From NCBI GenBank assembly GCA_020723665.1, contig DYIL01000001.1:186001-250000 (forward strand): a stretch of DNA of 64,000 nucleotides, given 5' to 3'. The notes beneath the pieces were generated by a model. The model did no database searches. It was given only the letters and a program-made list of their open reading frames with translations, and was not told the origin of the DNA. The DNA is from Methyloversatilis universalis. GTDB taxonomy: Bacteria; Pseudomonadota; Gammaproteobacteria; Methylococcales; Methylococcaceae. How positions within the stretch are numbered: the first letter of the stretch is position 1; every line of letters starts with the position of its first letter. Positions 11,202 through 28,658 of the stretch are shown here, in pieces. The translations under genes and the position numbers were made by a program.

Positions 11202-11325
11202 CAACAACCCTTTCCAGGGGATGCACACATCCCCGAAAGGGTTCATGCATGCTCCCCGGAAAACCAGCGAACCGCACGCGCTGGTGGCTTCAGTCCATTT
11301 TCCCGAGTGCGGCGGGGGGAGCATG
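11202..11325 (+). promoter_or_regulatory. structured leader L1 (ssb)
   Basis: A GGGGATGCA (11217-11225); B CATGCTCCCC (11248-11257) perfectly complementary (10 bp) to C GGGGAGCATG (11316-11325) covering SD and AUG. Also hairpin AACCCTTTccaGGGGATGcacaCATCCCCgAAAGGGTT. Confidence 0.75.
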
Positions 11326-11826
11326 AGCATGTTGAACAAAGCCCACATCATCGGCCGCCTGGGCCGCGATCCTGAGGTTCGGTACACCCAGGACGGGACT
11401 TGTATCGCCAATCTCGCGATCGCCACGTCCGAGTCTCACAAGGACAGGAACACGGGCGAGCGCAAGGAATCCACCGAATGGCACCGGGTCGTCCTGTTTG
11501 GACGACTGGGTGAAATTGCCGGCGAATATCTCAAGAAAGGTTCGCTCGTCTACCTGGAAGGTCGACTGCGGACCCGGAAATGGCAGAACAAGGATGGGCA
11601 AGACCAGTACACGATGGAAATCGTCGGTTCCGAAATGAAAATGCTCGGTAGCCGCTCGGATTCCAAGGAGGCTGTCCAGTCCGCAAGTTCCGGCCGGAAC
11701 GGGGGCGGCGGTTTTACGCCGATGCCGACGGACGAAGGTTCCGACTTCGAAGACGACGATATTCCCTTCATCGCCGCTTTTGCCGTGAAACGCAACCCAT
11801 TCGGCCGTTCCACACCGGCCCTCTGA
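11323..11826 (+). CDS. ssb: single-stranded DNA-binding protein
   Basis: [72 protein letters not shown]-terminal tip is non-canonical. Confidence 0.93.
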
Positions 11827-11889
11827 AACCGATCACGCCGTTGACCTGACTGGCCGAGGGGTCAGTGGAATCAACGACCGCTCCATTAG

Positions 11890-11953
11890 CCCAAACCGGG
11901 GACATCACCGCCCCGCTGGGGCCATGGTGTCCCCTCACCGGAGGTACACCATG
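11890..11953 (+). promoter_or_regulatory. structured leader L2 (bet)
   Basis: A GGGGACA (11898-11904) / B TGTCCCC (11928-11934); B ATGGTGT (11924-11930) / C ACACCAT (11946-11952). Confidence 0.75.
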
Positions 11954-12853
11954 AACAACAAGCTGATCCAGAAATTCGCCGAGCGCTTTTCCGTCGACCA
12001 GACCAAGGTCGTGGAAATCCTCAAGGCGACCGCGTTCAAGCAGAAAGCCGGCTCCGCGCCGGTCACCGACGAACAGATGATGGCCTTGCTGATCGTCGCC
12101 GATCAATATGGGCTGAACCCGTTCACCCGCGAAATCTACGCCTTCCCGGACAAGCAGAACGGGATCGTGCCGGTGGTCGGGGTGGATGGGTGGTCCAGGA
12201 TCATCAACCAGCATCCGGACTTCGACGGCATGGAATTCCGGCCGTCGGACAACATCGTCGAAATTGCAGGCGCAAAGCCCTGTCCCGAATGGATGGAGTG
12301 CCTCATGTACCGCAAGGACCGAGCCCACCCCACGGCGATTCGCGAGTACCTCGATGAAGTCTACCGCGAACCCTTCACGGGCACCAAGGACGGCCGCAGC
12401 TACACCGTCCCCGGTCCCTGGCAAACGCATACCAAGCGATTCCTGCGCCACAAGACGATGATCCAGGCCGCGCGCCTGGTGTTCGGCTTCGTCGGCATTT
12501 ACGACCAGGACGAAGCCGAGCGCATCCTCGAAGGCCAATCCGAGGTCGTAGCGTCGGGAACGGAGCTCGCGCCCTATCCGAGCGGCGAGCCGAGCCAGGA
12601 AGCCCAGCGCAAGACTCGGCAATTGATTGCGAGGGCCGAAAAGGCCGGCGCCTGGCAAGCCGCCTTGGACTATGCCGCCGAGCACTTCTCTGGTCTAGAT
12701 CTGGCCTATGTGACCCACGAAATCACAAAGGCCAGAAAGGCGCGGCAAGCCGGCGATCCCAGGCCGGCCCAGGCGGACCCGCCCGTCCTACCTGGAAAGG
12801 AAGCGCCGGCCGAAGCCAAAGAAGCGCTTCGCGGCGAACCCGTCGAAGCCTGA
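11951..12853 (+). CDS. bet: Bet/RecT-superfamily single-strand annealing protein
   Basis: MNNKLIQKFAERFSVDQTKVVEILKATAFKQ...DEQMMALLIVADQYGLNPFTREIYAFPDK...VVGVDGWSRIINQHPDFDGMEF. Confidence 0.92.
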   Translation: MNNKLIQKFAERFSVDQTKVVEILKATAFKQKAGSAPVTDEQMMALLIVADQYGLNPFTREIYAFPDKQNGIVPVVGVDGWSRIINQHPDFDGMEFRPSDNIVEIAGAKPCPEWMECLMYRKDRAHPTAIREYLDEVYREPFTGTKDGRSYTVPGPWQTHTKRFLRHKTMIQAARLVFGFVGIYDQDEAERILEGQSEVVASGTELAPYPSGEPSQEAQRKTRQLIARAEKAGAWQAALDYAAEHFSGLDLAYVTHEITKARKARQAGDPRPAQADPPVLPGKEAPAEAKEALRGEPVEA

Positions 12854-12865
12854 GCCGAATAATCT

Positions 12866-12941
12866 CAACGCCACCGGGGCGCCAGGAATCGCCCCAGGGG
12901 AGATCCATCATGGCGCCCCTTCATTTCAGGAGGACGCCATG
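12866..12941 (+). promoter_or_regulatory. structured leader L3
   Basis: A GGGGCGCCA (12876-12884) / B TGGCGCCCC (12911-12919); CATGGCG (12909-12915) / CGCCATG (12935-12941, includes AUG). Confidence 0.78.
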
Positions 12942-13262
12942 CACCCTGACACCCTTACGAAATCGCCCAACCAGGTGCCGCTCCACACGGACTGGGCGCG
13001 CTACGAAACGCCCGCCGTGGTGCGCAAGCACGGACGGCAATTCCTGGAGCGCTTCTGGGCACCCCAGGAAGGCGAGCCCCACGCGCTCAGCTTCGAGCGG
13101 ATCGCCGAATCCTACGGCGCTCGCATCGAGGAGTCCGAAGACGTGACGCTCCTGTTCTTCGAAGACGCCGACCAGGCGGCGGCCTGCGCCCGCAAGCTTC
13201 GTGAGTCGGGAGAAGCCCTGTCCATTGCCGCACAACTCCGCGTGCAAAGGAGGGCGGCATGA
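12939..13262 (+). CDS. hypothetical protein (107 aa), coupled to downstream exonuclease
   Basis: Starts after a structured leader with SD; stop overlaps the exonuclease start. Confidence 0.7.
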   Translation: MHPDTLTKSPNQVPLHTDWARYETPAVVRKHGRQFLERFWAPQEGEPHALSFERIAESYGARIEESEDVTLLFFEDADQAAACARKLRESGEALSIAAQLRVQRRAA

Positions 13263-14257
13263 AAATCGTGGATCTGAAGCAACGCACTCCGGAATGGCAC
13301 GTCTGGCGTAACGCGGGCGTGACGGCATCCGAAACGCCGATCCTGATGGGTTCGCCCTACAAAACGCCGTGGAGACTCTGGGCGGAAAAGCGCGGCCTGG
13401 TGCTCGCGGAAGATCTCTCGGGCAATCCCCACGTCCAGCGGGGTATCCGGGAAGAACCGGAAGCGCGCCGGCGTTTCGAGGATCGCCACGGCGTCCTGCT
13501 GCTGCCGATCTGTGCCGAATCGACGGATGAACCGATCCTTCGGGCCAGCTTCGACGGTCTGACCGACGACGGCCGGCCGGTCGAACTCAAGGCCCCCACG
13601 GCTGCGAAATTCCGGGACGCGGTGGAGAACGGTCAAGGGTCGGAGCTGTACCAGCGCTATTACGCGCAGCTCCAGACCCAGATCTACGTGTCCGAATCCG
13701 ACCTGGGGTATTTCGCCCTGCATTGCGGCGAGGCGTTTCTGGATCTCGAGGTCCCCCGGGACGACGACTACATCGCCCGCCTGGTGGAGACCGCCCGAAC
13801 CTTTTGGGCGTACGTCAAAACCGGGAAGGAGCCTCCCTTGGATCCGGAGCGCGACCTGTACGTCCCGAGTGGAAGCGACCTGGACACCTGGTTTCGTCTG
13901 GCCGCCGAATATCGGCAGTTCGACGAGAAGCGGGCCGGCTATACGGCGGAGGCCAAGGCCCTCGAGAAAAAGCTGGCCGAACTGGAGGCGCAGTTCCTGA
14001 AGATGATGGGCGAGTTCACGCTCGCGGAATCCTCGGGCATCCGGATCAGCCGCTATCTCCAGCAGGGCTCGGTCGATTACAAGTCCGCCCTCCAGGCATT
14101 TCAGCCGGAGGTGACCGAGAGCGAACTGGAGCGATTCCGGAAGAAACCCTCGGAACGGGTCCGCATCACCATCCGAGCGGAAGAAGACCGCCGAACCGAA
14201 GTCCCGTTCGAGCCCGAAGCCTTGAAAAAGGCGGCCGGGATCGACGCTTGGTTCTGA
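13259..14257 (+). CDS. YqaJ/lambda-type exonuclease
   Basis: MKIVDLKQRTPEWHVWRNAGVTASETPILMGSPYKTPWRLWAEKRGL; DGRPVELKAPT catalytic region. Confidence 0.9.
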   Translation: MKIVDLKQRTPEWHVWRNAGVTASETPILMGSPYKTPWRLWAEKRGLVLAEDLSGNPHVQRGIREEPEARRRFEDRHGVLLLPICAESTDEPILRASFDGLTDDGRPVELKAPTAAKFRDAVENGQGSELYQRYYAQLQTQIYVSESDLGYFALHCGEAFLDLEVPRDDDYIARLVETARTFWAYVKTGKEPPLDPERDLYVPSGSDLDTWFRLAAEYRQFDEKRAGYTAEAKALEKKLAELEAQFLKMMGEFTLAESSGIRISRYLQQGSVDYKSALQAFQPEVTESELERFRKKPSERVRITIRAEEDRRTEVPFEPEALKKAAGIDAWF

Positions 14258-14271
14258 CGTTCAACCTCACT

Positions 14272-14342
14272 CAACCCGGAAGGGGCGCCGTCATCGCCCC
14301 CGGGCCGTGATGCGCCTCTCCTTATTTGGAAGGTGCCTCATG
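14272..14342 (+). promoter_or_regulatory. structured leader L4
   Basis: CAACCCGGAAGGGGCGCC...GCCCCCGGGC...GATGCGCCTCTCCTT...GGAAGGTGCCTCATG; A/B GGGGCGC/GCGCCTC (one G-U). Confidence 0.65.
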
Positions 14343-14903
14343 AACTATCAAGACTATCAATCGGCGCGGCGGGGCGGTCTGATCCCGGCCCAGGTCGCCC
14401 TGAACAGGGCTCGCCGGAGCCAACAACTGGACGAGCTCACCGAACGGCTGCAATTCGCATGGCTCCTGAAATACGGCCAGTGCGACGAAGCCGCTTGGGA
14501 ACAGGATGGATTCGACCTACGCGCGAAAGTCGTCGACGACGAGGACGGATGGTTGAGGGTCGGAATCGACGTGTACGGCAGGTTCAGCGACCGATGGCGA
14601 GCCAGCGCCGTTCGTCACTGGATGGGTGACCGCCGGTCCTACCAGTGGTTCGTACCCGCCCATCCCGAGCATCGCCACGAGCGCTACCGCAGGGCGTGCG
14701 ATTACGGCCACGGCTGGAGTTATGTCGGCATCCGAGTCATTGCCTCCAAGGCCGGTGTGCCCCTGGGCGAGACGACCCTCTGGGGCATCGAGTCCGATTC
14801 GGACATCGAATTCTTTACCGAGACCGTCCTGGATTTCGGCGAAGACGCGATCGCGAAGGCACAAGCCAAGCTACGCGGGCTGTGCGGAGGAAACTGCCAA
14901 TGA
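14340..14903 (+). CDS. hypothetical ICE protein
   Basis: MNYQDYQSARRGGLIPAQVALNRARR...; preceded by leader and SD (GGAAGG). Confidence 0.65.
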   Translation: MNYQDYQSARRGGLIPAQVALNRARRSQQLDELTERLQFAWLLKYGQCDEAAWEQDGFDLRAKVVDDEDGWLRVGIDVYGRFSDRWRASAVRHWMGDRRSYQWFVPAHPEHRHERYRRACDYGHGWSYVGIRVIASKAGVPLGETTLWGIESDSDIEFFTETVLDFGEDAIAKAQAKLRGLCGGNCQ

Positions 14904-15115
14904 GTAAGCGGGGCAACCGTGAAACGGAAGGACGCACGGGTTCACCTGCGCATCCGATCGACGGTTATCACGGCGGCCGTAAGGCCTTCACCAGACTGCT
15001 GGCGGAAAACCGGGTTTCCCGCACGGCCGCCAACGAGGACTGGATATCGGGCAGAAAAGCCCGAGAGAACGGCGTGGGTTGTACTTGCCATCCATGCAGA
15101 GGCCCCACCTCCTGA
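14900..15115 (+). CDS. small hypothetical protein (71 aa)
   Basis: ATGA overlap with upstream ORF; C-terminal CTCHPC. Confidence 0.4.
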   Translation: MSKRGNRETEGRTGSPAHPIDGYHGGRKAFTRLLAENRVSRTAANEDWISGRKARENGVGCTCHPCRGPTS

Positions 15116-15123
15116 CGAAATTC

Positions 15124-15147
15124 GCCCCAACTTCGGTTGGGGCTTTT
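15124..15147 (+). terminator. Rho-independent terminator-like hairpin
   Basis: GCCCCAAcTTCGgTTGGGGCTTTT. Confidence 0.7.
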
Positions 15148-15320
15148 CCACTGGCCTTGCCGAATGCGAGACCAATGGAAAAGCCAGTTATTTCGGTGCC
15201 TTCGATGTTGAAGCGCTGAAATCCTGCCTCGTGCAGGCGTTCCGTCTACGGGCGGCGGGGAAGTCACCCTTCTTCGTGCCGGGTGCGTCAAACCCGGAGT
15301 TCGCGGCCGCAAGGCTCTGT

Positions 15321-15399
15321 CAGCAACCCATCCAGGGGAGATACATCCCCGAGTGGGGAACGTATCTCCCCTGTTTTTTTCAGAGGAGATACGACCATG
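15321..15399 (+). promoter_or_regulatory. structured leader L5 (terminator-like attenuator + RBS sequesterer)
   Basis: A CAGGGGAGATAC (15333-15344) / B GTATCTCCCCTG (15362-15373) perfect 12 bp followed by T7; B GTATCTCC / C GGAGATAC (15385-15392). Confidence 0.82.
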
Positions 15400-15684
15400 A
15401 AACGAAGCGACACCCTCTTTTCCAGAAGAGCTGCCCGCGTGGCCGCCGAGGATCAGATCCTCGAGATGGCCTCGCTCAAACCCGCCACGGTCGCGGGCGC
15501 GCTGGTTCAGCATCCGGATATTTTCCGGGAGTTGAATGACGACATGGCCAGGACCCTCGTCCTGTCCCTGATCGACCGAGGTCAAGCGGAAATACTCCGC
15601 CAAATCCTGGGGCTGAAGACCATCGGCCGACGCAAGGCCGCCCTGCTCGCCGAGTTACTCCTGCGGAATGCGTTCCGCGAGTAG
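15397..15684 (+). CDS. hypothetical protein (95 aa)
   Basis: MKRSDTLFSRRAARVAAEDQILEMASLKP...; leader plus SD AGGAG. Confidence 0.65.
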   Translation: MKRSDTLFSRRAARVAAEDQILEMASLKPATVAGALVQHPDIFRELNDDMARTLVLSLIDRGQAEILRQILGLKTIGRRKAALLAELLLRNAFRE

Positions 15685-15864
15685 AACGGCTTGCAGCAAG
15701 CGGGAAGCGGGACCCTCGTCCTCTTCCCGCCAGGCCGATGCCGCCTTCTCCAGGGCGGCATTGTGCTCCCCGATCGTGCGGGGCGGCTTCAGGACGCCGG
15801 TCATGGCCCGAAAGGCCTTGAGTTCGTCTGGCGTCAATCTGAGGTGATTTCCCATTTTGATCAT
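15655..15864 (-). CDS. small hypothetical protein (69 aa)
   Basis: MIKMGNHLRLTPDELKAFRAMTGVLKPPRTIGEHNAALEKAASAW...; overlaps 3' end of the convergent gene. Confidence 0.45.
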   Translation of the reverse strand: MIKMGNHLRLTPDELKAFRAMTGVLKPPRTIGEHNAALEKAASAWREEDEGPASRLLQAVLLAERIPQE

Positions 15865-15920
15865 CGATGGCTCCTGATGCGGTGTCCGATAGTCACATCG
15901 TACCGCGGAGTCTTTGTTTA

Positions 15921-16001
15921 GCAACCCCGACGGGGAGGTTCACGCCCCCGGGGAGTCGTGCGCCTTCTCTTTGGGTGAAACCCTGAATAGGAGGCGTTAT
16001 G
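15921..16001 (+). promoter_or_regulatory. structured leader L6 (CobS-like gene)
   Basis: GCAACCCCGACGGGGAGGTTCACGCCCCCGGGGAGTCGTGCGCCTTCTC...AGGAGGCGTTATG; B CGCCTTCT nearly complementary to AGGAGGCG. Confidence 0.6.
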
Positions 16002-16943
16002 TACCAAGCCTTTTCCATCGCTCAAGTGTTCGGCATTCCGGCACCGGCCAGGATGACCGTCGAAGGCTTCGCCGACGACACCCATCCCCGGATTCCGGTC
16101 CGACGGGACTACGTGTTCCGCAAGGAGCCTCTGCGGGATGTCCTGGCATTCCTCGGCAATCCCCACGGCGATGGTCTGTACGTCACCGGCCCGACCGGAT
16201 CCGGCAAGACCTCGCTGATCGCGCAGATCGCGGCACGGCTGAACTGGCCGGTGCACGCGGTGACCTGCCACGGCAGGCTGGAACTAAACGATCTGATCGG
16301 CCAGTTCACCCTGATCAACGGGAGCATGCAGTTCGTGCACGGCCCCTTGTCCCAGTCCGTTCGGGACGGGCATGTCCTGATCCTGAACGAGATCGATCTC
16401 ATGGACCCGTCCGAACTGGCGGGGCTCAACGACATCCTCGAGGGGCAACCCTTGGTGATCCCGCAGAACGGCGGCGAAGTGATTCGTCCGCACCCGAAGT
16501 TCCGCCTGGTCGCCACCGGCAACAGCGCCGGTGCAGGCGATCCCAGCGGGTTGTATCAGGGCGTGCTGCGGCAGAACCTGGCCTTCCTGGACCGGTTCCG
16601 GCTGATCGAAATCGGCTATCCGGAACCGGAATTGGAAGACGCTGTGCTGGCGAAGACCGTTCCGGCCATACCAACGGCCATCCGGGAGAAGATGATTCGT
16701 GTCGCCAACGAGGTGCGCAAGCTCTTCGTCGGCGGCGATGAGGGGCCCGGGATGCTCAGCGTCACGATGTCCACCCGCGGACTCCTCCGCTGGGCTTCGC
16801 TGACGGTGGCGTTCAAGGGCGCTCCCAATGCCCTGGAATATGCCCTGGACAGGGCCCTGACCTTGCGGGCCGAGCCTGAACAACGGCTGGCGATCCACCG
16901 GATTGCCGCCGACGTGTTCGGCGACGACTGGAGAGGTGCGTGA
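15999..16943 (+). CDS. CobS/MoxR-like AAA+ ATPase
   Basis: LYVTGPTGSGKTSLIAQIAARLNWPVHAVTCHGRLELNDLIGQF...VLILNEIDLMDPSELAGLNDILEGQ...RLVATGNSAGAGD. Confidence 0.88.
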   Translation: MYQAFSIAQVFGIPAPARMTVEGFADDTHPRIPVRRDYVFRKEPLRDVLAFLGNPHGDGLYVTGPTGSGKTSLIAQIAARLNWPVHAVTCHGRLELNDLIGQFTLINGSMQFVHGPLSQSVRDGHVLILNEIDLMDPSELAGLNDILEGQPLVIPQNGGEVIRPHPKFRLVATGNSAGAGDPSGLYQGVLRQNLAFLDRFRLIEIGYPEPELEDAVLAKTVPAIPTAIREKMIRVANEVRKLFVGGDEGPGMLSVTMSTRGLLRWASLTVAFKGAPNALEYALDRALTLRAEPEQRLAIHRIAADVFGDDWRGA

Positions 16944-17686
16944 TGGAGGAGTATGACCTCTACCGCTTCACCCATCCGGACGGTTCCAGCAAGGATTGGG
17001 CAATCCGGCGCAATGCCGATGGCCGCATCACGACACGCTGGGGACGCACCGGTCCAACACTTCCACAAGTCGGTACCCGCCATCAGGACAAGACCGCCCT
17101 GGAAAACGCCAAGCGGCGGAAGGGGTACATCCATGTCGGCAAGGTGCTGATCGATGACCATGGCAGAATCCAGTCCTTCGGGAACGACGTCCAGGACGAG
17201 CCTGCGCCAAGCCAACCTGCGGCGCGGAAAGAAGCGCTCTACTGGCGCATCAAGATCGGAGGATCGGCCACGCGAGAACAGTTGCTCGAATGGGGCAAAG
17301 CGGTAACCGGTGCGGCGAACCGGCTGGGTACGGCGTTCGGACTCGATTGCAGCGAGCGCGCCAATTTCGAGCCAGGTGCCATCGCCCACTGGCGCATTCC
17401 GGGGACCGGAGCATCCGGGGCGGGCCAAATCGGGCTTGACCAAGGGGTTATCCCGCTCCTAATCCTGATGACGATGAAGAGGTTGGCACCCGATGACGTA
17501 AGTGTCTCGCTTGCCACCGAGGACGGCGTCGAAATCGGGACCGATCTCAGAAAGGAAATCCAGGTGCTGGAAGGGTTCGGCACTGATCTCGAAAGCGTCA
17601 GGCCCATGGCCGAAGCGCTCGGGTTGCTTCCGCCGCGCATCAATCTGGCGGAAGCGATTCAGACGAATCAGGACTGCTGGTTCTGA
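16940..17686 (+). CDS. WGR-domain protein
   Basis: DLYRFTHPDGSSKDWAIRRNADGRITTRWGRTGPTLPQVGTRHQDKTALENAKRRKGYIHVG; overlaps upstream AAA+ stop. Confidence 0.8.
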   Translation: MMEEYDLYRFTHPDGSSKDWAIRRNADGRITTRWGRTGPTLPQVGTRHQDKTALENAKRRKGYIHVGKVLIDDHGRIQSFGNDVQDEPAPSQPAARKEALYWRIKIGGSATREQLLEWGKAVTGAANRLGTAFGLDCSERANFEPGAIAHWRIPGTGASGAGQIGLDQGVIPLLILMTMKRLAPDDVSVSLATEDGVEIGTDLRKEIQVLEGFGTDLESVRPMAEALGLLPPRINLAEAIQTNQDCWF

Positions 17687-17698
17687 ATTCTTTTTTTC

Positions 17699-17766
17699 AC
17701 CCCGAAGGGGCGCATCATTCGCCCTCGGGGCAGAGTGCGCCCCTCTCTTTTGGAGGACGCACCATG
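17699..17766 (+). promoter_or_regulatory. structured leader L7 (DUF3150 gene)
   Basis: A GGGGCGCA (17707-17714) / B TGCGCCCC (17736-17743); B GTGCG / C CGCAC next to GGAGGA. Confidence 0.75.
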
Positions 17767-18825
17767 AAAGAAACCACAATGATTCTCGACCGCCTGCGGG
17801 TGGTCAAAATCGACGCCCATATCTGGGGCGGTCGCAAGAAGCTCCGCAAGGAGGATCTGATCCTCGCTGACGGCAGCGTGCTACCGCCCGAAGATCTGGC
17901 TTCGCTGGGTTCGAAGAAGATCGCCGATCCCCAAGAGCTCTCGGTCTTCAATCGCCTCAAGAAGGAGGCCGAACGGATCTGTCTCAAGGTAGGCACGCGC
18001 TTTCTGGGCGGCTTTGCCGTTCCGGAAGGCTCGATCGACTCGATCTGGTCCGAACTGGAGCGGATCGCCCTGAGCTTCCGTGCGGCCCGGGACGACTTCC
18101 TGTCCCGTTACGACGAGGCCGTCGAAGGCTGGGTGGCCAAACACCCCGAATTCGCCATGGCCATCCGCAAGGCGGTCGATCCTGTCGAGGTCGTCGCCGC
18201 GGGCCTCAGGTTCGATTACGTCATCTTCAGGGTTTCGCACCCGGAGAAGACGGAAACCGGAGATACGGCGGATTCGTCTTCTCCGCTCGACCGCAAGGTC
18301 GGCTCGCTGAGCGAAAACCTGTTTCGGGAAATCGCCCAAGAGGCCAACGATCTGGTCGAAAGCTCCCTGTTGGGACGCCAGGCCGTGACCCGTAAGGCGC
18401 TGAGTCCCCTCAAAAGGATGCGCGACAAGCTGGATGGGCTGGCGTTTTTGGACCACCGCGTCCAGCCGGTTGTGGCGACCCTTGATGAGTTGTTGTCACG
18501 CGCGCCGAAAACTGGCGCGCTGGACGGCCGGTATCTCAACGAGATGATCGCGACCGCCCTGTTGCTGTCCGATCCCGACAAGATCAAGCGGCACGGGGAA
18601 GGGCTGTTACAGATAGAAGGTCTGATACTACCGCAGATCGGAGATGGCTCGGCCTTTGAGGAGGCGGTGGAATCCCTGAACGACGAGGTTGCCGTTGACC
18701 CATCCGAAGACGACTGGCTCGACGAACCCGATGTCTTCGGGGAGCTCCCCCTTGGAGATCCGGAACACGCGGACGCCTCCGAAGATCAGGCGGTTTTGAC
18801 GGACGATCTCGGAGCCTGGTTCTGA
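17764..18825 (+). CDS. DUF3150-like protein
   Basis: ILDRLRVVKIDAHIWGGRKKLRKEDLIL...LGSKKIADPQELSVFNRLKKEAERICLKVGTRFLGGFAVPE; sits between CobS-like and CobT-like genes. Confidence 0.75.
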   Translation: MKETTMILDRLRVVKIDAHIWGGRKKLRKEDLILADGSVLPPEDLASLGSKKIADPQELSVFNRLKKEAERICLKVGTRFLGGFAVPEGSIDSIWSELERIALSFRAARDDFLSRYDEAVEGWVAKHPEFAMAIRKAVDPVEVVAAGLRFDYVIFRVSHPEKTETGDTADSSSPLDRKVGSLSENLFREIAQEANDLVESSLLGRQAVTRKALSPLKRMRDKLDGLAFLDHRVQPVVATLDELLSRAPKTGALDGRYLNEMIATALLLSDPDKIKRHGEGLLQIEGLILPQIGDGSAFEEAVESLNDEVAVDPSEDDWLDEPDVFGELPLGDPEHADASEDQAVLTDDLGAWF

Positions 18826-18831
18826 ATGTAT

Positions 18832-18908
18832 CAACCCTGGCGGGGTGGCCATCCTACCCCGGTCGGGACTGGACCGCGCCCCGCCTGCCATGTTTGGAGG
18901 CAACTATG
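18832..18908 (+). promoter_or_regulatory. structured leader L8
   Basis: CAACCCTGGCGGGG...; A GGCGGGG (18839-18845) / B CCCCGCC (18879-18885). Confidence 0.6.
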
Positions 18909-19721
18909 GCAAACAATTACGAACAAGCGACGGTGGAACCGGTATTGCCGGCGTCCGCCGTCTCGGATTTCGAGCGGGAACTCCTGCGCGGCTTCGGCTT
19001 CGCGAGCGAACCCGGCACCCTAGAGGCTGGCGCCAAGGCGCTGTATTTCTTCGCCGAAGACTCGGTGAATTCGTCCTATTTCGGCGCCTTGACCGTTGGC
19101 GATGTGATGGAAGCGGCAAGCCGAGGCGACAATCTCGCTGCCGCCCTGCTGGGGGATCTGGGCTCCCCAGAGGCCGACCTCACGATCGACACGTTCGACA
19201 AGGGGATTCCCTCCTGGGAGGACATCCTCCAGCACATCCTGCGGAAACCGGAGTGCGAAGGCATCGACGAAATCGTCGTCATGGCGGCGTACACCTGCTC
19301 CAAGATGCGGCCGGGAGAATTCGGCGGCTGGGTGACGCGCATTACGCGCGACTGCATTCAGTCCGAAGGAACCCGCTCCGTGCTGGACCGGATGCGGAAG
19401 GAAGATGCCCTTCACGAGGCGTCTGCTACCCTTCCTGAGGTATCTGACCACCACGAACACCTCCAACCGATATCAGCTTTTCAGGAAGATACCGGCGCCT
19501 TTGGCCCGCCGAGTGTAGACGTCCATATCGTCGCCAACGAAGAGCAAGTCGTCATTGATCTGGCGACCCCGGATCGCGCCTGGAAGGAGGGTCCGCGCCT
19601 TTATCTGGAACGGCGGAACGACCAGTGGCGTTGCTACATTCACAGGGACTCGGATGATGCCAAGGCGTTGCTCTCTATCCACGACGACCGGACGGTCGGC
19701 TTTGAGAGCTTTGACGCCTAG
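18906..19721 (+). CDS. hypothetical protein in CobS/CobT-like cluster
   Basis: MANNYEQATVEPVLPASAVSDFERELLRGFGFASEP...; leader and SD TTTGGAGG upstream. Confidence 0.65.
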   Translation: MANNYEQATVEPVLPASAVSDFERELLRGFGFASEPGTLEAGAKALYFFAEDSVNSSYFGALTVGDVMEAASRGDNLAAALLGDLGSPEADLTIDTFDKGIPSWEDILQHILRKPECEGIDEIVVMAAYTCSKMRPGEFGGWVTRITRDCIQSEGTRSVLDRMRKEDALHEASATLPEVSDHHEHLQPISAFQEDTGAFGPPSVDVHIVANEEQVVIDLATPDRAWKEGPRLYLERRNDQWRCYIHRDSDDAKALLSIHDDRTVGFESFDA

Positions 19722-19816
19722 CGTCGGAAAGTAGCGCTGGTACACGATGACCTCGTGAATGACCCGAATCGCGAGGCCCATGGGCTGACCTGCGATAGCG
19801 CAGCCGGCCTTACCAG

Positions 19817-19888
19817 TAAACCCGAAAGGGGCAAGTCCGCCCCGAAGGGGATCGGGTTTGCCCCTTATTTCTTAAGGAGCAAACCATG
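19817..19888 (+). promoter_or_regulatory. structured leader L9 (CobT-like gene)
   Basis: A AAGGGGCAA (19826-19834) / B TTGCCCCTT (19858-19866); B GGTTTGCCCCTT pairs 11/12 with C AAGGAGCAAACC (19874-19885). Confidence 0.82.
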
Positions 19889-21685
19889 AACAGAAATCTC
19901 AACAACGCATTCCCCATCGTCGCTGCGGCGCTGGGCGACAAGCTGGGCGTGAAAGTTCGCGTCGGTGGACAGGAGGCCAGGACCGACGGGGACATCATCC
20001 AGATCCCGGCCTATGACGGCGAGGATCCCGATTATCGGGATGTGGCCTGGGGCTACCTGGCTCATGAAGCCGCTCATGTTCGATACACGGAGATGAGCTA
20101 CTTCAACCAGGCGGCCGCATCACCAATCCGCAAAGCCCTCCTCAACATTCTCGAGGACGTCCGGATCGAAAAGCGTCTGGCCGACATTTACCCGGGCACG
20201 CGCCTGACCATCGAAAAGACGGTGAGAAAGCTCATCAACAACGGCGACTTTGCCGCCCCCACGCCGGACGATCATCCGGCCGCGGTGCTGCAGGCCTTCC
20301 TGCTGTTCGGGCTGAGGAGACGGGAACTGAGGCAGACGGCCCTGTCGGACCTCGCCGATTCGGCGGAACGAATGCTTGAGGACCGCTTCCCGGCCGGCGC
20401 GGTGACCCGGCTGTTCGGTCTACTTTCCGAGGTTCCGGATTTGATCGGGACGCGGGACTGTCTGAGCCTGACGGATCGGATCCTGCGCATGATTCAGGAA
20501 GAACTGGAGAAGGCGAACGAAGAGAATTCGTCCGGTCCGGACGAACCAGGCGGGCAGGACCGGCAAACCGGACAAAGCCGGCCCGCCCCCCGGGATGGCG
20601 GTTCGGACGATAGTCCTCACTCCGCAATGGATGAGAGTAACGACTTGGGAGCCCTGCTGGATGGCGGGAAAACCGAAAACGATAGTGGGATCGTCGCCCA
20701 TGCGCCGGAGGATGTTCGGAAGGCAGCGGCCGACGGCGAGACGCCATTGCCATCCTCTTCCGGTCAAGACACGAAGGACGATGCGGGGATCGGCGCTCTG
20801 CGGGCGGTCTTGTCCGCCGGCGACGGCGATATCGGTCAGGACCTCTTTGAACAGGCACGGGACGCCATGAGACTGACTGCGTCGCAGAGCACGGACATTT
20901 CGCTACCGACTGTGGATGAGCCGCCGAGGAACCTCCAAGGCGGTCTTGCCCTGCTCGACAAATCGGCGAGGGAATCGGGCCGAATCCGGGCCACCTTGCA
21001 GGGTCTGGTCCAATCCAGTCGCCTGCGGAGGCCGGTGCACAAACGCGCGGGCCACCGCGTGGATGGCAACCGGCTGTACCGGATCGCGACCGGCGATGCG
21101 CGCGTCTTTGACCGGCGCTCGCCGCAGTCCGCGCCCAATACGGCGGTGCATGTGCTGGTCGACCGTTCGCCCTCGATGAAAGCCATGGTCATCCACGACC
21201 AGAAAGTCATAGGCCTGCGAATCGACCTGGCCTGGGAAGCTTCGATGGCTCTGGCCCTGGCGCTGGAAGGCATCCCCGGGGTCAATCCCGCGGTCACGGC
21301 CTTTCCGGGACTCTTCGGGGCCGACGACCGCGTCTATCGCGTGATGGATCATGGCCAACGGGTCCGGCAACGCGCGTCCTGTTACGGTTTCGGAACCGAG
21401 GGCGGAACGCCGCTGGCCCAGGGACTGTGGTATGCGGCCAGCCGATTACTGGCCTGCCGCGAGCCGCGCAAGGTCATTCTGGCGTTGACGGACGGCGAGC
21501 CCGACAATCTGGACGCCACGCAGGACATTCTCGCCCGCTGTGCCGCGACCGGCATCGAAGTGGTGGGGATCGGCCTGGGGCTGGATATCGGACAGGTGTT
21601 CGAACGTTCCGTATCGATCCTGCACATCCACGAGCTTCGAGCCCGGTTGTTCGAGCTGTCTCGGAATCTGCTGATCGCCGCATGA
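19886..21685 (+). CDS. CobT-like vWA-domain protein with HExxH-like motif
   Basis: AHEAAHVRYTE and HVLVDRSPSMKAMVIHDQKVIGLRIDLAWEASMALALALEGIPGV (MIDAS-like DxSxS). Confidence 0.85.
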   Translation: MNRNLNNAFPIVAAALGDKLGVKVRVGGQEARTDGDIIQIPAYDGEDPDYRDVAWGYLAHEAAHVRYTEMSYFNQAAASPIRKALLNILEDVRIEKRLADIYPGTRLTIEKTVRKLINNGDFAAPTPDDHPAAVLQAFLLFGLRRRELRQTALSDLADSAERMLEDRFPAGAVTRLFGLLSEVPDLIGTRDCLSLTDRILRMIQEELEKANEENSSGPDEPGGQDRQTGQSRPAPRDGGSDDSPHSAMDESNDLGALLDGGKTENDSGIVAHAPEDVRKAAADGETPLPSSSGQDTKDDAGIGALRAVLSAGDGDIGQDLFEQARDAMRLTASQSTDISLPTVDEPPRNLQGGLALLDKSARESGRIRATLQGLVQSSRLRRPVHKRAGHRVDGNRLYRIATGDARVFDRRSPQSAPNTAVHVLVDRSPSMKAMVIHDQKVIGLRIDLAWEASMALALALEGIPGVNPAVTAFPGLFGADDRVYRVMDHGQRVRQRASCYGFGTEGGTPLAQGLWYAASRLLACREPRKVILALTDGEPDNLDATQDILARCAATGIEVVGIGLGLDIGQVFERSVSILHIHELRARLFELSRNLLIAA

Positions 21686-21692
21686 AACGAGC

Positions 21693-21718
21693 GCGCCGGC
21701 TTAACGCCGGCGCCTTTT
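21693..21718 (+). terminator. Rho-independent terminator
   Basis: GCGCCGGC-TTAAC-GCCGGCGC-CTTTT directly after the CobT-like gene. Confidence 0.8.
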
Positions 21719-21867
21719 CAGTGCCTGCCGGCCGGGTGGGCACCGGAAAGGCGACTTCTTGTGCGCGTCCATGACGGACCAGCACTCGATGATCCCAGCT
21801 GAGGATCTCAAACAAGCAGCCACACGACGGTCGTACGGGAGCCTGCCTCTCGTCATGATACTTAATC

Positions 21868-21942
21868 TACCCACCTGGGAGCAAACGATCCCCCTGGGAG
21901 GGCGTTTCTCCTTGTACTTTTACCATAGGAGAAACGAGCATG
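21868..21942 (+). promoter_or_regulatory. structured leader L10
   Basis: A GGGAGCAAACG (21877-21887); B CGTTTCTCCT (21903-21912) perfectly complementary to C AGGAGAAACG (21927-21936). Confidence 0.75.
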
Positions 21943-22563
21943 TACTTTATCCTTGGACTTTGCATGATCGCGGCCGTCATCGTCGCGGCCAACATCGTGC
22001 TCACCACGATAGTGAGGCTGGCTTCTTTCGCATTCGCAGCGGCAAAAGCCGGTTATGAAGCGATCCGCGCCCGGCGCGCGCATAGCGAACGTATCTATCA
22101 CTACCCATCATCCGTAATGGCCACCCCCATTCGGCCCAAGCGGGACTGGGAAAAGGAATCGACGTTGGTGCGCCAGCAGGTCCTTCTCGAAGGCCCGCGC
22201 ATCTGGCGTAACCCCAGCCCTGTTCTCCAGCAGATCGATTGGGACATCGCCATCGAACTGAAAAAACAGGAACTGGTCCGCCTCAAGACCGAAACGGCAC
22301 AGATTGTCCAGCAGCAGACCAAGGCAGAAGCCCGGGTCATGCGAAGGAAAAGCAGGTCAGCCAAACCGCTGACGGCTACCCGACAGGATGATCTGTTTTC
22401 GGTGACCTCAGCGACAAGTCAGCCGGCTTCGCTGGCCGAAGCCGGCATAACTCTGCCGCTTGCCGCGCAATTCGGCGAATCTCCGGGTCATCCGGTTCGC
22501 CGCGAAGGACTGCATCCGTCAGTTCGGCAACCCGCTGCCCGAAGCGGTTGTTTCCGCCATTGA
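21940..22563 (+). CDS. hypothetical membrane-anchored protein
   Basis: N-terminal TM MYFILGLCMIAAVIVAANIVLTTIV; leader with 10-bp RBS-sequestering segment upstream. Confidence 0.6.
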   Translation: MYFILGLCMIAAVIVAANIVLTTIVRLASFAFAAAKAGYEAIRARRAHSERIYHYPSSVMATPIRPKRDWEKESTLVRQQVLLEGPRIWRNPSPVLQQIDWDIAIELKKQELVRLKTETAQIVQQQTKAEARVMRRKSRSAKPLTATRQDDLFSVTSATSQPASLAEAGITLPLAAQFGESPGHPVRREGLHPSVRQPAARSGCFRH

Positions 22564-22885
22564 AAACCTGAAGTGTCCGGCCATTGGCGTATACCGTTCT
22601 GACCGGACCGCGGTCCACCCCGTCCTCCAGCAGGAGGAGGTTAAGAGCGGCCTGCGCCTTCGCTCTGGCCATCTCCGGCCGAAGGCGTAGCAACCAAAGG
22701 ACGCGCTCGCCAAGTTCGCGATCCTTCGGATCATCATCGTCGAAATGGCGATCTCTAACGAGATCGGCCAACTCAGCCATCTCATTGAAATAGCGGTTGC
22801 ATTCCTCAAGCACCTGCCTGGAATCGTCCAGGATCTCCTCGGGTGGAGGCGACGGTTTGAGGAGCTGTTTCAGCTTTTGCAGCAT
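22376..22885 (-). CDS. hypothetical protein, convergent with the preceding ORF
   Basis: MLQKLKQLLKPSPPPEEILDDSRQVLEECNRYFNEMAELADLVRDRHFDDDD... Confidence 0.5.
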   Translation of the reverse strand: MLQKLKQLLKPSPPPEEILDDSRQVLEECNRYFNEMAELADLVRDRHFDDDDPKDRELGERVLWLLRLRPEMARAKAQAALNLLLLEDGVDRGPVRTVYANGRTLQVFNGGNNRFGQRVAELTDAVLRGEPDDPEIRRIARQAAELCRLRPAKPADLSLRSPKTDHPVG

Positions 22886-22990
22886 CGGGATTTCCTCGAG
22901 GATTCTGTTCTATGACCAGAAGATAACCGAGAAAACCCGATAGGCAATACCCAACCACGGCCCGGCATCCAGAGAGATGTCGTGGCGATC

Positions 22991-23061
22991 CAGCAACCCT
23001 CGAGGGGCGGACATTCCTTTTGGGGAACCTGGTCTGCCCTCATACCAAGAGAAAGATCATG
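22991..23061 (+). promoter_or_regulatory. structured leader L11
   Basis: CAGCAACCCTCGAGGGGCGGAC...; A GAGGGGCGGAC (23002-23012) / B GTCTGCCCTC (23032-23041). B/C pairing weak. Confidence 0.6.
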
Positions 23062-23487
23062 AAAAAATTCGTTGTCAGCTACGAGTTGGACTACGTCCAC
23101 ACGGTCCGAGTCGGAGTTACCGCACCGGATGCTGAAGCCGCGAAGAAAACCGCGGAGGAAGCGTTCGATACCGGGACAATTTGGGACAACACGGCAGACA
23201 TGCCGTTGTTGTACGACGACTTCGAGGAAATGGATCGCGGTCACGTGCTCGAGTTCGAGGCCCAGGAGGTCGAGGAATTCCCGGAGCCCGAGGCCTGCGT
23301 GAGGGAGATCATCCAGCGTGACAAAGCATTCGCTGCGTGCAAGGCGCTGATCGCTGCTTACCAGAGGGGAGAGGAGTGCGAATCCATTGACTGGGAAGAT
23401 GTGGATCAAGCCCATCAACTCGCGTTGAAGGCCATGCCACACCTGGCGAGGGAGCAAGATGTCCTTTCCGGTGACGTCGTCAACTGA
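23059..23487 (+). CDS. hypothetical ICE protein
   Basis: MKKFVVSYELDYVHTVRVGVTAPDAEAAKKTAEEAF...; leader upstream. Confidence 0.65.
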   Translation: MKKFVVSYELDYVHTVRVGVTAPDAEAAKKTAEEAFDTGTIWDNTADMPLLYDDFEEMDRGHVLEFEAQEVEEFPEPEACVREIIQRDKAFAACKALIAAYQRGEECESIDWEDVDQAHQLALKAMPHLAREQDVLSGDVVN

Positions 23488-23497
23488 GGGAGGAGTC

Positions 23498-23773
23498 ATG
23501 CCTTACCAGACCATCTGGGTCGAACCCGAAATCCTGTATCAAGGAACGGAGGTGACCATCCTTGCCAGTTATCACGAAGACGAGTGGGAGGAACCGCAAT
23601 TCTACTGGGTTCGTCCCATTCCAGCAGGCTACGATCTCTCGGCTGAAATGGAATTCGAATCCGTCGATCTTCGGGAAATTGGATTCCGTGGCGACTTTCA
23701 GGATGAGCCAGAACGCTTGGCCTTCATCCAGAAAGCGGTTGCGGACGGCCACCTCAAGCCTGTGAGTCGATAG
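23498..23773 (+). CDS. hypothetical protein (91 aa)
   Basis: MPYQTIWVEPEILYQGTEVTILASYHEDEWEEPQFYWVRP; SD GGGAGGAG. Confidence 0.6.
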   Translation: MPYQTIWVEPEILYQGTEVTILASYHEDEWEEPQFYWVRPIPAGYDLSAEMEFESVDLREIGFRGDFQDEPERLAFIQKAVADGHLKPVSR

Positions 23774-23787
23774 AAGGAGCATCCATC

Positions 23788-23851
23788 AACAACCCAGCCG
23801 GGGAAAATACCCCGGAGGGGTCGTTTCCCCGGCCAATGGAGAAACGATATG
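23788..23851 (+). promoter_or_regulatory. structured leader L12
   Basis: A GCCGGGGAAA (23797-23806) / B TTTCCCCGGC (23824-23833) perfect 10 bp; B TCGTTTCCCC vs C GGAGAAACGA (23838-23847) 9/10. Confidence 0.8.
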
Positions 23852-24349
23852 ACAAAAGTACAAAGCCTCTCTGAAGGTGGCCGCGAGCCCGAATGCGGCG
23901 ATCTAGTCAACGCACTGAAGGAGTGCCTCGCCGCGATGGAGTCCATGCGGACCCAGATCGAACAGATGAGAGGCTTGTTCGATGACGCCGATGGCGCCAT
24001 TGCCGGTGCGTGTCGGGATCACGAGGCGGCCGATTCCTTTGCAAGATCCGTGTTGGCATCGGAAGGAGGCGGTCATGGCAAATCCTGCATGGACAGGCTT
24101 TACATCGCCACCGCCGCTTTGCGCGATCTTCAAGTGGGCTTCCCACATGACGAGATTGCCGCCGTGCATGGCACCGGTCTGCGCAACCTAGTTCGCGAAC
24201 TCGCTAATTACCTCCGTGAAAACGGGATCGATGATGAGGGGGCGCTGGATTGCGTTGCAATGGATGAAATCGAGCCACAGCAAGCCGAGAACATCGTCGC
24301 GGAAACACCCGATGCGCTCTCTCCAGTACGCAGGGAGCATACGAAATGA
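23849..24349 (+). CDS. hypothetical ICE protein
   Basis: MTKVQSLSEGGREPECGDLVNALKECLAAMESMRTQIEQM...; leader upstream. Confidence 0.6.
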   Translation: MTKVQSLSEGGREPECGDLVNALKECLAAMESMRTQIEQMRGLFDDADGAIAGACRDHEAADSFARSVLASEGGGHGKSCMDRLYIATAALRDLQVGFPHDEIAAVHGTGLRNLVRELANYLRENGIDDEGALDCVAMDEIEPQQAENIVAETPDALSPVRREHTK

Positions 24350-24588
24350 AAGGGTACGACCAAACGGATTTCGAGAGGAATCCAAGCAAGTACCGTCTGT
24401 TCAAGACGGCACGGATTGCTGAGGCGCCTCTGGCGGAAGACGGCTACCACGTCGGCAGAATGGTCAGCATCGAATACCTCGATACGCGGACCAACGCCGC
24501 CGTCGCCGGTTATCCCGTCATGCCGCTGTATGCCGTGGACGGTAAGTTCTACCTGTTCGCCAGGGCGCTTGCGGATTTCGCGCTGTAA
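24346..24588 (+). CDS. hypothetical protein (80 aa)
   Basis: ATGA overlap with upstream ORF; MKGYDQTDFERNPSKYRLFKTARIAEAPLAEDGYHVGRMVSIEYLD. Confidence 0.55.
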   Translation: MKGYDQTDFERNPSKYRLFKTARIAEAPLAEDGYHVGRMVSIEYLDTRTNAAVAGYPVMPLYAVDGKFYLFARALADFAL

Positions 24589-24733
24589 TACGCGCTGTAA
24601 TGACCGATCCCCATCGGGATAACCGTCCCGATGAGGCGGTCCTCGATGGTTTTTTTGGCTATTAGGGGGAGGGATAAATTCTCTCCCCCTTTCGCAACTT
24701 ACGTGAGCGCTGCGGAATATCGCAGCGATTCTG

Positions 24734-24811
24734 CCAACCGCCCCTGCGGGATGTTTCGTCCCGCACGGGCCGAAGTGTCTCCGGGGGTTTTTTACTCCGG
24801 AGATCCCCATG
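24734..24811 (+). promoter_or_regulatory. structured leader L13, divergent (DUF4942 gene)
   Basis: CCAACCGCCCCTGCGGGATGTTTCGTCCCGC...GTGTCTCCGGGGGTTTTTTACTCCGGAGATCCCCATG; TCTCCGG / CCGGAGA. Confidence 0.55.
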
Positions 24812-26530
24812 AACGACGATTTTCAATACTACCCGACACCTCGCGCGCTGAGCGCCCGCGCCTGGACCAAGTTCAAAAACCGGAACTTCATCCGGGTACT
24901 GGAACCCTCGGCCGGCGAAGGACACCTGCTCGAGTGCCGTCCCGGTGACCGGTCGCGCATTCCCGTCGACTGCATAGAGATCGACATCGCCAAACACCTG
25001 TCCCTGCGCGAGCAAGGCTTCGACGTGGTGGGCCTCGATTTCATGCAGTTCAATTCCGGGGCCGTGTACTCGCACATCCTCATGAATCCTCCCTTCGCCG
25101 AAGGCGCGAAACACGTGCTCAAGGCATGGGAGATACTGGCGGATGGCGAGATCGTCGTCATTCTGAACGCCGAAACGGTCAGAAACCCGTTTTCGAAGGA
25201 ACGCCAACTTCTCGTGCGACTCATCGAGCAACACGGGGAGGTGGAGTACCTCCGGGACGCGTTCAGCGGACCGGACTCGGCGCGCAGGACCGACGTGGAA
25301 ATCGCGTTGGTCTGGCTCAAGAAAGAATCGGATTTCCGCTCAGAAATCGTCGGATCCATTCTCGACGATCTTCGCCAGGATAGGACAACCGGCGAAGAGC
25401 TGGCTTATGGCTACCACGACATGAACGACGTCGCCCTACCCAACTCGTTCATTGAAAACGCGGTGCTGATGTTCAATGCCGCGGTTAAGGCCACGCGCCA
25501 AGCCGTGCTGGCCGACGCCCGTGCCCGCAAATATTGCCGGATGCTCGGACACACGCTGGAACGCTTGAACGGCGATGCTCTCGAGGACGATCTCGAATCC
25601 TCCCGAGAGCAGGTCAAAAGAGAGCTGTACGAGCGTTACAAGGACATCAAAAACCGGGCCTGGACAGACATCCTGCGTTCCACGGAGGTCACATCGAGGC
25701 TGTCGTCTTCAGCGCAAAAACGCGTCGAGGCAGAGTTCGAGACGATCAAGCCCTTCGAATTCACAGTCTCGAACGTTTATGGGTTTCTCCAGGGCATCAT
25801 CGAGAAGCAGGGAGAAATCCAGATCGGCATGGCCTGTGATGTGTTCGACCTGATTACCCGGTATCACACCGACAACACGGTGTACTACATGGGCTGGAAG
25901 TCGAACGACAAGCATCGCACCTGCGGGATGCGCATCAAGACGACGCGCTTCGTCATTCCCGGGCATGCCACCGAGGCATGGCGAAGCGGCTTGTCATGGG
26001 ATTCTCAACAGATGTTGCGGGATCTCGATAAGGTGTTCGCCATGCTCGACGGCCAGGTCGAATCCGAGGTAAGTCTTGAATGCGTTTTCCGTTACAAGTT
26101 CCGCGAACTTCGAGACGGTCAGCGCGTGAGCGCCTCCTATTTCGATGTCCGCTACTACCCCGGAGTCGGCACGATCCATTTCTTTCCAAAAGACAAGACG
26201 CTGGTCGACCGTCTCAACCGGCTTGTCGGACGCCATCGGCAATGGCTGCCGCCGGAAGACGTGCGCGTGAGCGACGCGTTCTGGTTGCAGTACGAGCAGG
26301 CCGAGAAGTTCGACAAGACATTCCGACAGGAAATAGGGAAGGCGCAGGGAAACCTGCGTGGGACCTGTAGGGACCTGTCTTGGACCGCACAATACGGATA
26401 CGACGAGGAGAAGACTCGAGCTCAGGAACTCCTTGCTGATGCAATGTCTGCAACGCTCGAACAGCACGGCATCGATCCCGAGGGATTGCTAGAAGATAGT
26501 CAGCAAATGCCGCGGCTTCTCGCATCCTGA
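24809..26530 (+). CDS. DUF4942-type class I SAM-dependent DNA methyltransferase-like protein
   Basis: YYPTPRALSARAW...FIRVLEPSAGEGHLLE (motif I) and SHILMNPPFAEG (catalytic NPPF); C-terminal region DUF4942-like. Confidence 0.8.
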   Translation: MNDDFQYYPTPRALSARAWTKFKNRNFIRVLEPSAGEGHLLECRPGDRSRIPVDCIEIDIAKHLSLREQGFDVVGLDFMQFNSGAVYSHILMNPPFAEGAKHVLKAWEILADGEIVVILNAETVRNPFSKERQLLVRLIEQHGEVEYLRDAFSGPDSARRTDVEIALVWLKKESDFRSEIVGSILDDLRQDRTTGEELAYGYHDMNDVALPNSFIENAVLMFNAAVKATRQAVLADARARKYCRMLGHTLERLNGDALEDDLESSREQVKRELYERYKDIKNRAWTDILRSTEVTSRLSSSAQKRVEAEFETIKPFEFTVSNVYGFLQGIIEKQGEIQIGMACDVFDLITRYHTDNTVYYMGWKSNDKHRTCGMRIKTTRFVIPGHATEAWRSGLSWDSQQMLRDLDKVFAMLDGQVESEVSLECVFRYKFRELRDGQRVSASYFDVRYYPGVGTIHFFPKDKTLVDRLNRLVGRHRQWLPPEDVRVSDAFWLQYEQAEKFDKTFRQEIGKAQGNLRGTCRDLSWTAQYGYDEEKTRAQELLADAMSATLEQHGIDPEGLLEDSQQMPRLLAS

Positions 26531-26533
26531 CCT

Positions 26534-26583
26534 CACCCGTCCAAGGGGAACGCTTTCCGGAAGGACTGCGTTCCTCTTTGGGC
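26534..26583 (+). promoter_or_regulatory. leader-like element L14, no obvious downstream ORF
   Basis: A AAGGGGAACGC (26543-26553) / B GCGTTCCTCTT (26568-26578), one G-U; inner TTCCGGAA. Confidence 0.5.
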
Positions 26584-26600
26584 TCTCAAATTTTTTGTCG

Positions 26601-26686
26601 CCCACCCCGCCGGGATTCCCAAGGCCTCCCGTGCGGGAGGTTTTGAGAATCCCGGTCGGTGACCAATCTCGAAACCAAGGAGACAA
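26601..26686 (+). promoter_or_regulatory. leader-like element L15, upstream of the ribonucleotide reductase remnant
   Basis: CACCCCGCCGGGATTC; A CCGGGATTC (26610-26618) / B GAATCCCGG (26647-26655) perfect 9 bp; inner CCTCCCGTGCGGGAGG; downstream AAGGAG. Confidence 0.55.
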
Positions 26687-27287: not shown

Positions 27288-27506
27288 ATGCAGACTCCCA
27301 AAGGGCAACACTTACTCAACGAAGAAGATCTAAAGAACTGGTTTGGTTTCAATAGGAGGCTCGATCTCGAGCGGCATCTACAAAGCATCCGAATCCCCTA
27401 TTTCTATGGGCGGGGCGGCAGGATATGTACGACAACCGCGGCAATTGACAAAGTCCTAATTGGCGGCCGAGAATCTAGCCCCATTGAAGAAATCGAGTTC
27501 TTGTGA
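27288..27506 (+). CDS. DUF4224-like small protein (excisionase-like position)
   Basis: LLNEEDLKNWFGFNRRLDLERHLQSIRIPYFYGRGGRICTT; immediately upstream of integrase. Confidence 0.65.
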   Translation: MQTPKGQHLLNEEDLKNWFGFNRRLDLERHLQSIRIPYFYGRGGRICTTTAAIDKVLIGGRESSPIEEIEFL

Positions 27507-27507
27507 T

Positions 27508-28509: not shown

Positions 28510-28539
28510 ATTTTTTTCGGAAAAATTTTCGGAAAACAA

Positions 28540-28573
28540 AAGGCTTGCAGGCATAAGACACCTGTAAGCCTTT
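28540..28573 (-). terminator. inverted repeat/terminator-like hairpin downstream of tRNA
   Basis: On minus: AAAGGCTTACAGG-TGTCTTATG-CCTGCAAGCCTTTTG. Confidence 0.6.
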
Positions 28574-28581
28574 GATTTACT

Positions 28582-28658
<77 letters not shown>

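Follow-up and report, generated by a model that had tools for sequence, protein, structure and literature searches.

Why would 13 gene starts within a single module of an integrative and conjugative element (ICE) each be preceded by a leader of the same architecture, and what might such leaders do? The question is raised by a 64,000-nucleotide stretch of Methyloversatilis universalis DNA (contig DYIL01000001.1, positions 186,001 to 250,000; this whole stretch is hereafter the window), in which a plus-strand module spanning 11.2-26.6 kb includes genes for SSB, RecT/Bet, a YqaJ exonuclease, a CobS-like AAA protein, and DUF3150 and DUF4942 proteins (all identified by Pfam or NCBIfam), together with a CobT-like VWA gene whose name rests on its position and its relatives. 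We consider it quite probable that the leaders are one family of default-off, cis-acting translational attenuators, one for every module gene with its own, independent initiation. The repeated architecture that an earlier reading of this DNA (the original prediction) had described across the module is present at all 13 starts.

The gene-linked leaders lie between 11.2 and 24.8 kb, are each ~65-80 nt long, and consist of alternating C/G segments in the layout CCC-GGGG/A-CCCC-GGG-B-RBS, where RBS is the ribosome-binding site. Six segments can be distinguished: S1 (CCC), S2/A (GGGG plus a gene-specific tail), S3 (CCCC), S4 (GGG), B (a gene-specific part plus CCCC), and C (the RBS). In the clearest member, the leader of gene 15397-15684, A occupies 15335-15344 (GGGGAGATAC), B 15362-15371 (GTATCTCCCC), and C 15385-15393 (GGAGATACG), with a T-run 3' of B.

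Two competing folds and concerted change

The minimum-energy fold of most leaders comprises two hairpins, a nested CCC-(GGGG-loop-CCCC)-GGG hairpin in which S1 pairs with S4 (CCC:GGG) on the outside and S2 with S3 (GGGG:CCCC) on the inside, and a second one in which B:C pairing masks the RBS. The GGGG and the loop that follows make up segment A, which is complementary to B as well, and in the alternative fold A:B forms around an inner CCCC:GGGG hairpin (S3:S4) and leaves the RBS free. Both of the pairings that had been proposed as mutually exclusive, A:B and B:C, are therefore supported, but the outer CCC:GGG and inner GGGG:CCCC pairs of the RBS-hidden state had been missed, and A, which had been taken for a decoy of the RBS, is more plausibly the strand that takes up the anti-RBS segment B. 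The predicted minimum-energy fold hides the RBS in 11/12 window leaders, whereas the best fold contains A:B in 12/12 when the RBS is forced open, and RNA truncated at B (before C exists) folds as A:B in 12/12. Among 112 other leaders, A:B is found in 77% of RBS-open folds but in 11% of ground states. Across the window leaders, the predicted cost of opening the RBS ranges from 1 to 12.5 kcal/mol (12.5 for the leader of ATG 24809), and fold z-scores range from -1.9 to -5.1, with the exception of the 23059 leader at -0.4. These folding predictions suggest that the off state would be the ground state and that the RBS-open A:B fold may form before C is made.

Because the variable part differs between leaders, an alignment-free own-versus-other test was chosen, which asks whether the B of a leader pairs better with the A and C of that leader than with the A and C of others. 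For the 12 window leaders, z is -5.5 for A:B and -5.8 for B:C, and 0/20,000 permutations were as good; the corresponding values are -6.1 and -5.3 for the leaders of an IncA plasmid, -2.9 and -3.9 for a P. veronii plasmid (pPVG21), and -3.7 and -4.9 for a Methylomonas plasmid (pUP202). Each of these four sets is significant alone, and all 45 leaders pooled give -12.3 and -12.7. A further 79 non-redundant leaders, from genomes outside the seeds of R1 (a covariance model of the family), give -13.8 for A:B and -15.0 for B:C, the latter raised by selection because R1 includes the B:C pairs and the former not built in because R1 is without A:B pairs. The claim that A, B, and C change in concert thus holds among paralogues, and it also holds among orthologues, since both pairings persist, with changed sequence, in the corresponding leaders of bet, exo, cobS, DUF3150, and yfaE (e.g., for DUF3150, the window has GTGCGCC with GGACGCAC and SXT has GTGCGTCC with GGATGCAC; for yfaE, GGTCGCGCTC with GAGCGTGACC in IncA and GGTCACGTTC with GAACATGACC in pAsa4b).

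A composite test, consisting of the nested hairpin, A:B, and B:C, was passed by 11/12 module leaders and by 1/78 open reading frame (ORF) starts elsewhere in the window, with 0/28 minus-strand starts in the module and 33/1200 shuffled leaders passing as controls. RNAalifold returned no structure from a MAFFT alignment of the leaders because the register had slipped in that alignment, and a fixed-register alignment padded with N (A3) was used in its place. In A3, 94.2% of cells are paired versus 75.0% after shuffling, 10/16 pairs have changes on both sides, and covariation is 0.533 versus 0.155 in shuffles (0/500 shuffles) and at most 0.150 when the alignment is slid, although these counts lean toward the structure because the B:C register was picked by pairing. 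Chance or base composition as the source of the pairing is ruled out by the own-versus-other, composite, and A3 tests. The sequences themselves show how the leaders are segmented, that two pairings compete, that these change in concert in a gene-specific way, and how far the family extends.

Leaders and gene starts of the module

In the window, R1 finds ten leaders at E 0.0012 or better (E-values are rough, owing to a short calibration), all on the plus strand at 11.9-23.9 kb and three of them model seeds; weaker matches on the minus strand reflect these palindromes read in reverse complement. The leaders and related hairpins are as follows.

11202-11331, plus strand: leader of ssb (ATG 11329); hairpin I; B GCATGCTCCCC, C GGGGAGCATG; fold z -5.1
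11885-11953, plus strand: leader of the bet/RecT gene (ATG 11951); R1 E 4e-7; A:B -18.8, B:C -17.1
12866-12941, plus strand: leader of gene 12939-13262 (ATG 12939); R1 E 0.0012; A:B -23.5, B:C -18.3
14271-14342, plus strand: leader of gene 14340-14903 (ATG 14340); R1 E 3.2e-8 (model seed)
15323-15399, plus strand: leader of gene 15397-15684 (ATG 15397), the clearest member; R1 E 9.1e-16 (model seed); fold z -4.6
15921-16001, plus strand: leader of the CobS-like AAA gene (ATG 15999); R1 E 2.7e-4
17696-17766, plus strand: leader of the DUF3150 gene (ATG 17764); R1 E 5.2e-7; A:B -19.9, B:C -15.0
18831-18908, plus strand: leader of gene 18906-19721 (ATG 18906), weaker; R1 E 8.5e-7
19817-19888, plus strand: leader of the CobT-like VWA gene (ATG 19886); R1 E 5.6e-8; fold z -4.1
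21866-21942, plus strand: leader of gene 21940-22563 (ATG 21940); R1 E 6.1e-9
22993-23061, plus strand: leader of gene 23059-23487 (ATG 23059); A:B strong (-17.1), B:C weak (-9.5); fold z -0.4
23790-23851, plus strand: leader of gene 23849-24349 (ATG 23849); R1 E 6.9e-6 (model seed)
24736-24811, plus strand: leader of the DUF4942 gene (ATG 24809); fold z -4.2; RBS hairpin very stable, with a T-run in its loop
26531-26585, plus strand: orphan hairpin seen in the sequence, with A GGGGAACGC and B GCGTTCCTC, without RBS or start codon; no R1 match
26590-26670, plus strand: second orphan A:B-type hairpin seen in the sequence, CCGGGATTC / GAATCCCGG, without start codon; no R1 match

The original count of about 15 leaders is recovered as the 13 gene-linked leaders plus the two A:B-type hairpins at 26.53-26.67 kb, which lie at the end of the module and are perhaps remnants of lost genes. 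Another leader-like hairpin, CCCCATCGGGATAACCGTCCCGATGAGG followed by a T-run and without RBS and gene, is found at 24600-24660. In the ssb leader, which matches R1 partially (E 0.1), an insert of >50 nt with an extra hairpin separates B from C, and B:C forms a run of 10. The 24809 leader failed the composite test and is without an R1 match. The weak members are 23059, because of its B:C pairing, and 18906, in which the RBS is sequestered in part only and A:B is the predicted ground state.

Five plus-strand starts (13259, 14900, 16940, 23498, and 24346) are without a leader, and since each of them overlaps or almost abuts the stop of the preceding gene, every independent initiation site of the module has, in practice, a leader. 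A simple promoter scan of the locus gave nothing informative. The closest relatives of the DUF3150 gene are found in Methylococcaceae (e.g., Methylocaldum sp. 14B at 93%). Located 3' of the module, in the 27460-28658 region, is a tyrosine integrase gene that adjoins a tRNA gene (28585-28658, minus strand), and this region is probably the attachment end of the element.

Mechanism, trigger, and alternatives

At rest, S1:S4 and S2:S3 would form the nested hairpin and B would pair with C, hiding the RBS and keeping translation off; pairing of A with B (with S3:S4 inside) would release C and allow ribosomes to load. Prediction of the RBS-open fold before C is transcribed favours a co-transcriptional or factor-assisted switch, and we tentatively propose a kinetic, co-transcriptional trigger, in which a new transcript would be briefly open, would load ribosomes only during active transcription of the operon, and would then close. 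This trigger is the least certain of our inferences, and a trans-acting factor holding A:B is about as likely. In effect, the recombination and DNA-processing proteins would be silent under leaky transcription and would be released together upon induction of the element. Default-off control is supported for the whole family by a precedent in SXT, in which, according to the relevant passages of a review (PMC4542580, citing Garriss 2013), transcription of bet and exo is high but their expression is restrained by a strong translational attenuator located 5' of bet; in those passages the attenuator is described for bet only and also noted in IncA/C, with repression reported for SXT only. A family leader is found exactly there (R1 match at L080 5777-5843, ending at the Bet start), and with the bet leader of the IncA plasmid (L096) the family is present directly upstream of bet in both SXT/R391 and IncA/C.

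Several observations weigh against this mechanism. The leaders of 24809 and 21940 have opening costs >12 kcal/mol, which makes a purely thermodynamic switch unlikely there, the 18906 and 23059 leaders fit the switch model poorly, and the leader cluster of locus L116 by itself gives no own-versus-other signal. Moreover, A precedes the CCC in 97/113 leaders, with G nearly absent from that flank, and a TTCAACC motif occurs in the loop of the RBS hairpin (the B-C spacer) of loci L113-L131, where the 4-mers TCAA and CAAC are ~5x enriched. The proposed switch has no clear use for either the conserved A or this motif, and both hint at a trans-acting factor. An element- or host-made protein or small RNA might bind the invariant parts (the upstream AACCC and the CCC/GGG stems), stabilise A:B, and turn all genes on together, an explanation that shares both folds with the kinetic switch and differs in its trigger, and that we regard as a serious contender, short of an even chance. 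The invariant stems and the very high opening costs of some leaders would be accounted for in this way; on the other hand, the loop, a natural binding site, differs in nearly all leaders (101/113 are distinct), and the divergent genes that neighbour the module in the window are not related to their counterparts in pUP202, for which reason a shared neighbouring regulator was rejected. The TTCAACC motif is similar to the sequence that flanks the first CCC on its 5' side and is possibly a protein site.

Fixed hairpins that hide the RBS, keeping translation low or blocking read-through between genes without any switching, would agree with the predicted predominance of the off state as ground state nearly everywhere and with the SXT precedent, for which no inducer is stated in the passages cited (PMC4542580), but A:B shows conservation of its own and would serve no purpose in a static hairpin, which renders this explanation improbable. 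Coupling to an upstream ribosome or a leader peptide, as in erm or cat attenuators, whereby a ribosome positioned on S1 would open the nested hairpin and make A available to B, is quite improbable: an upstream stop lies within 25 nt of the leader start in 26/51 leaders, but in 20/51 the leader starts >60 nt past that stop, so such coupling is not general, and no conserved small ORF was noticed, although small ORFs were not searched systematically. That the leaders are transcription attenuators, with A:B followed by U acting as an intrinsic terminator, is highly improbable, because the T-run that follows A:B in 15397 and several pUP202 leaders is found in 2/10 window leaders scored and 0/14 IncA leaders, and because terminators separating every gene from the next would make a long operon pointless. 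The proposal of a shared translational and sometimes transcriptional switch is accordingly retained for translation, whereas transcriptional control is not general, the T-run after B being confined to a minority. The triggers that remain for the attenuator family are the kinetic co-transcriptional switch and the trans-acting factor. With either transcription dynamics or a dedicated RNA-binding factor as the one signal that all leaders read, the chances seem evenly balanced that the leaders constitute an element-wide post-transcriptional regulon, with a custom-matched switch per gene and joint release of blocks of DNA-processing and anti-restriction genes.

Spread of the family and comparison with known systems

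The leader family is not specific to the ICE in the window. Across 28 related loci, R1 yields 272 matches at E up to 1, and at E up to 0.001 it has matches in 21/274 genomes of the class and 9/249 of the phylum; the matches are usually clustered. Clusters occur in SXT/R391 ICEs (L064, L080), the IncA plasmid, Methylomonas elements, and pPVG21, as well as before the DUF3577, DUF6094, and helicase genes of the elements in L114-L121; ArdC genes in L120 and L126 also have a family leader, and orthologous leaders are present in IncC (L132), pAsa4b, and pC1579. Among plasmid records, 771 contain the IncA bet leader, and all but one of these (770) are conjugative. No significant R1 match was obtained in a Polaromonas and a Providencia plasmid that have homologous module genes (L098, L099), so the leader is not tied to these genes. 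Three near-identical leaders precede different genes of the one IncA plasmid (L096:9596-9664, 13918-13985, and 23161-23230) and look as if copied as cassettes. A genome-wide search for CAACCC-N4-GGGG gave three matches outside the module, in unrelated sequence without leader architecture.

In IncA/C plasmids and SXT/R391 ICEs, both major vehicles of resistance genes, and in other elements, most genes of the module are preceded by a family leader, which probably gives these elements a common and largely uncatalogued means of turning their DNA-processing genes on and off. Such control would bring a general RNA layer into regulation described so far mainly in terms of transcription factors, and would explain why bet and exo are transcribed yet poorly translated. 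The dozens of gene-tuned versions of one switch offer a natural series for studying how competing hairpins set translation, and the family provides a marker for recognising such modules.

The expression platforms of translational riboswitches contain anti-RBS and anti-anti-RBS segments that are mutually exclusive, and this mode of pairing is shared by the family. Unlike riboswitches, the leaders lack a conserved ligand-binding core: no aptamer core was found in 113 leaders, in which the hairpin loop is gene-specific and only the GC stems and the short A-rich flank are conserved, so that a metabolite trigger seems unlikely. In erm/cat translational attenuators, a downstream hairpin hides the RBS and alternative pairing of earlier segments frees it, as would occur here; the family differs in its many copies per operon and in that no leader peptide or drug-stalled ribosome was noticed, within the limits already given for small ORFs. 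The radC RNA (RF01754) is, like the leaders, cis-regulatory, but it is described by a different model and has no match in the window; its one match beside a leader, at L125:719-861, lies just upstream of the leader of a DUF3577-like gene without overlapping it, an arrangement of tandem cis-regulatory RNAs.

Rfam 15, at gathering and relaxed thresholds, gave no match on a leader (window, L064, L095-L097, L114-L119, L121, L125), and searches of open-access literature found nothing on the family beyond the SXT review, although an earlier description elsewhere is possible. The covariance model and Rfam search that had been suggested thus recover the family in ICEs and plasmids under no existing Rfam entry, and the description of the family as novel needs qualifying in one respect, in that its SXT bet member coincides in position with a strong translational attenuator already on record (PMC4542580). 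With that attenuator, as characterised in the passages cited, the family shares its position, a homologous gene, and a strong block on translation of a transcribed mRNA; the attenuator is reported there for bet only, whereas the family in the window has numerous copies, each specific to its gene and capable of a further, competing pairing, and extends to several element classes. Translational attenuators are known, and what appears to be new is the family as such, which is not in Rfam 15 and combines many custom-matched copies per element with a second pairing and a broad range of hosts.

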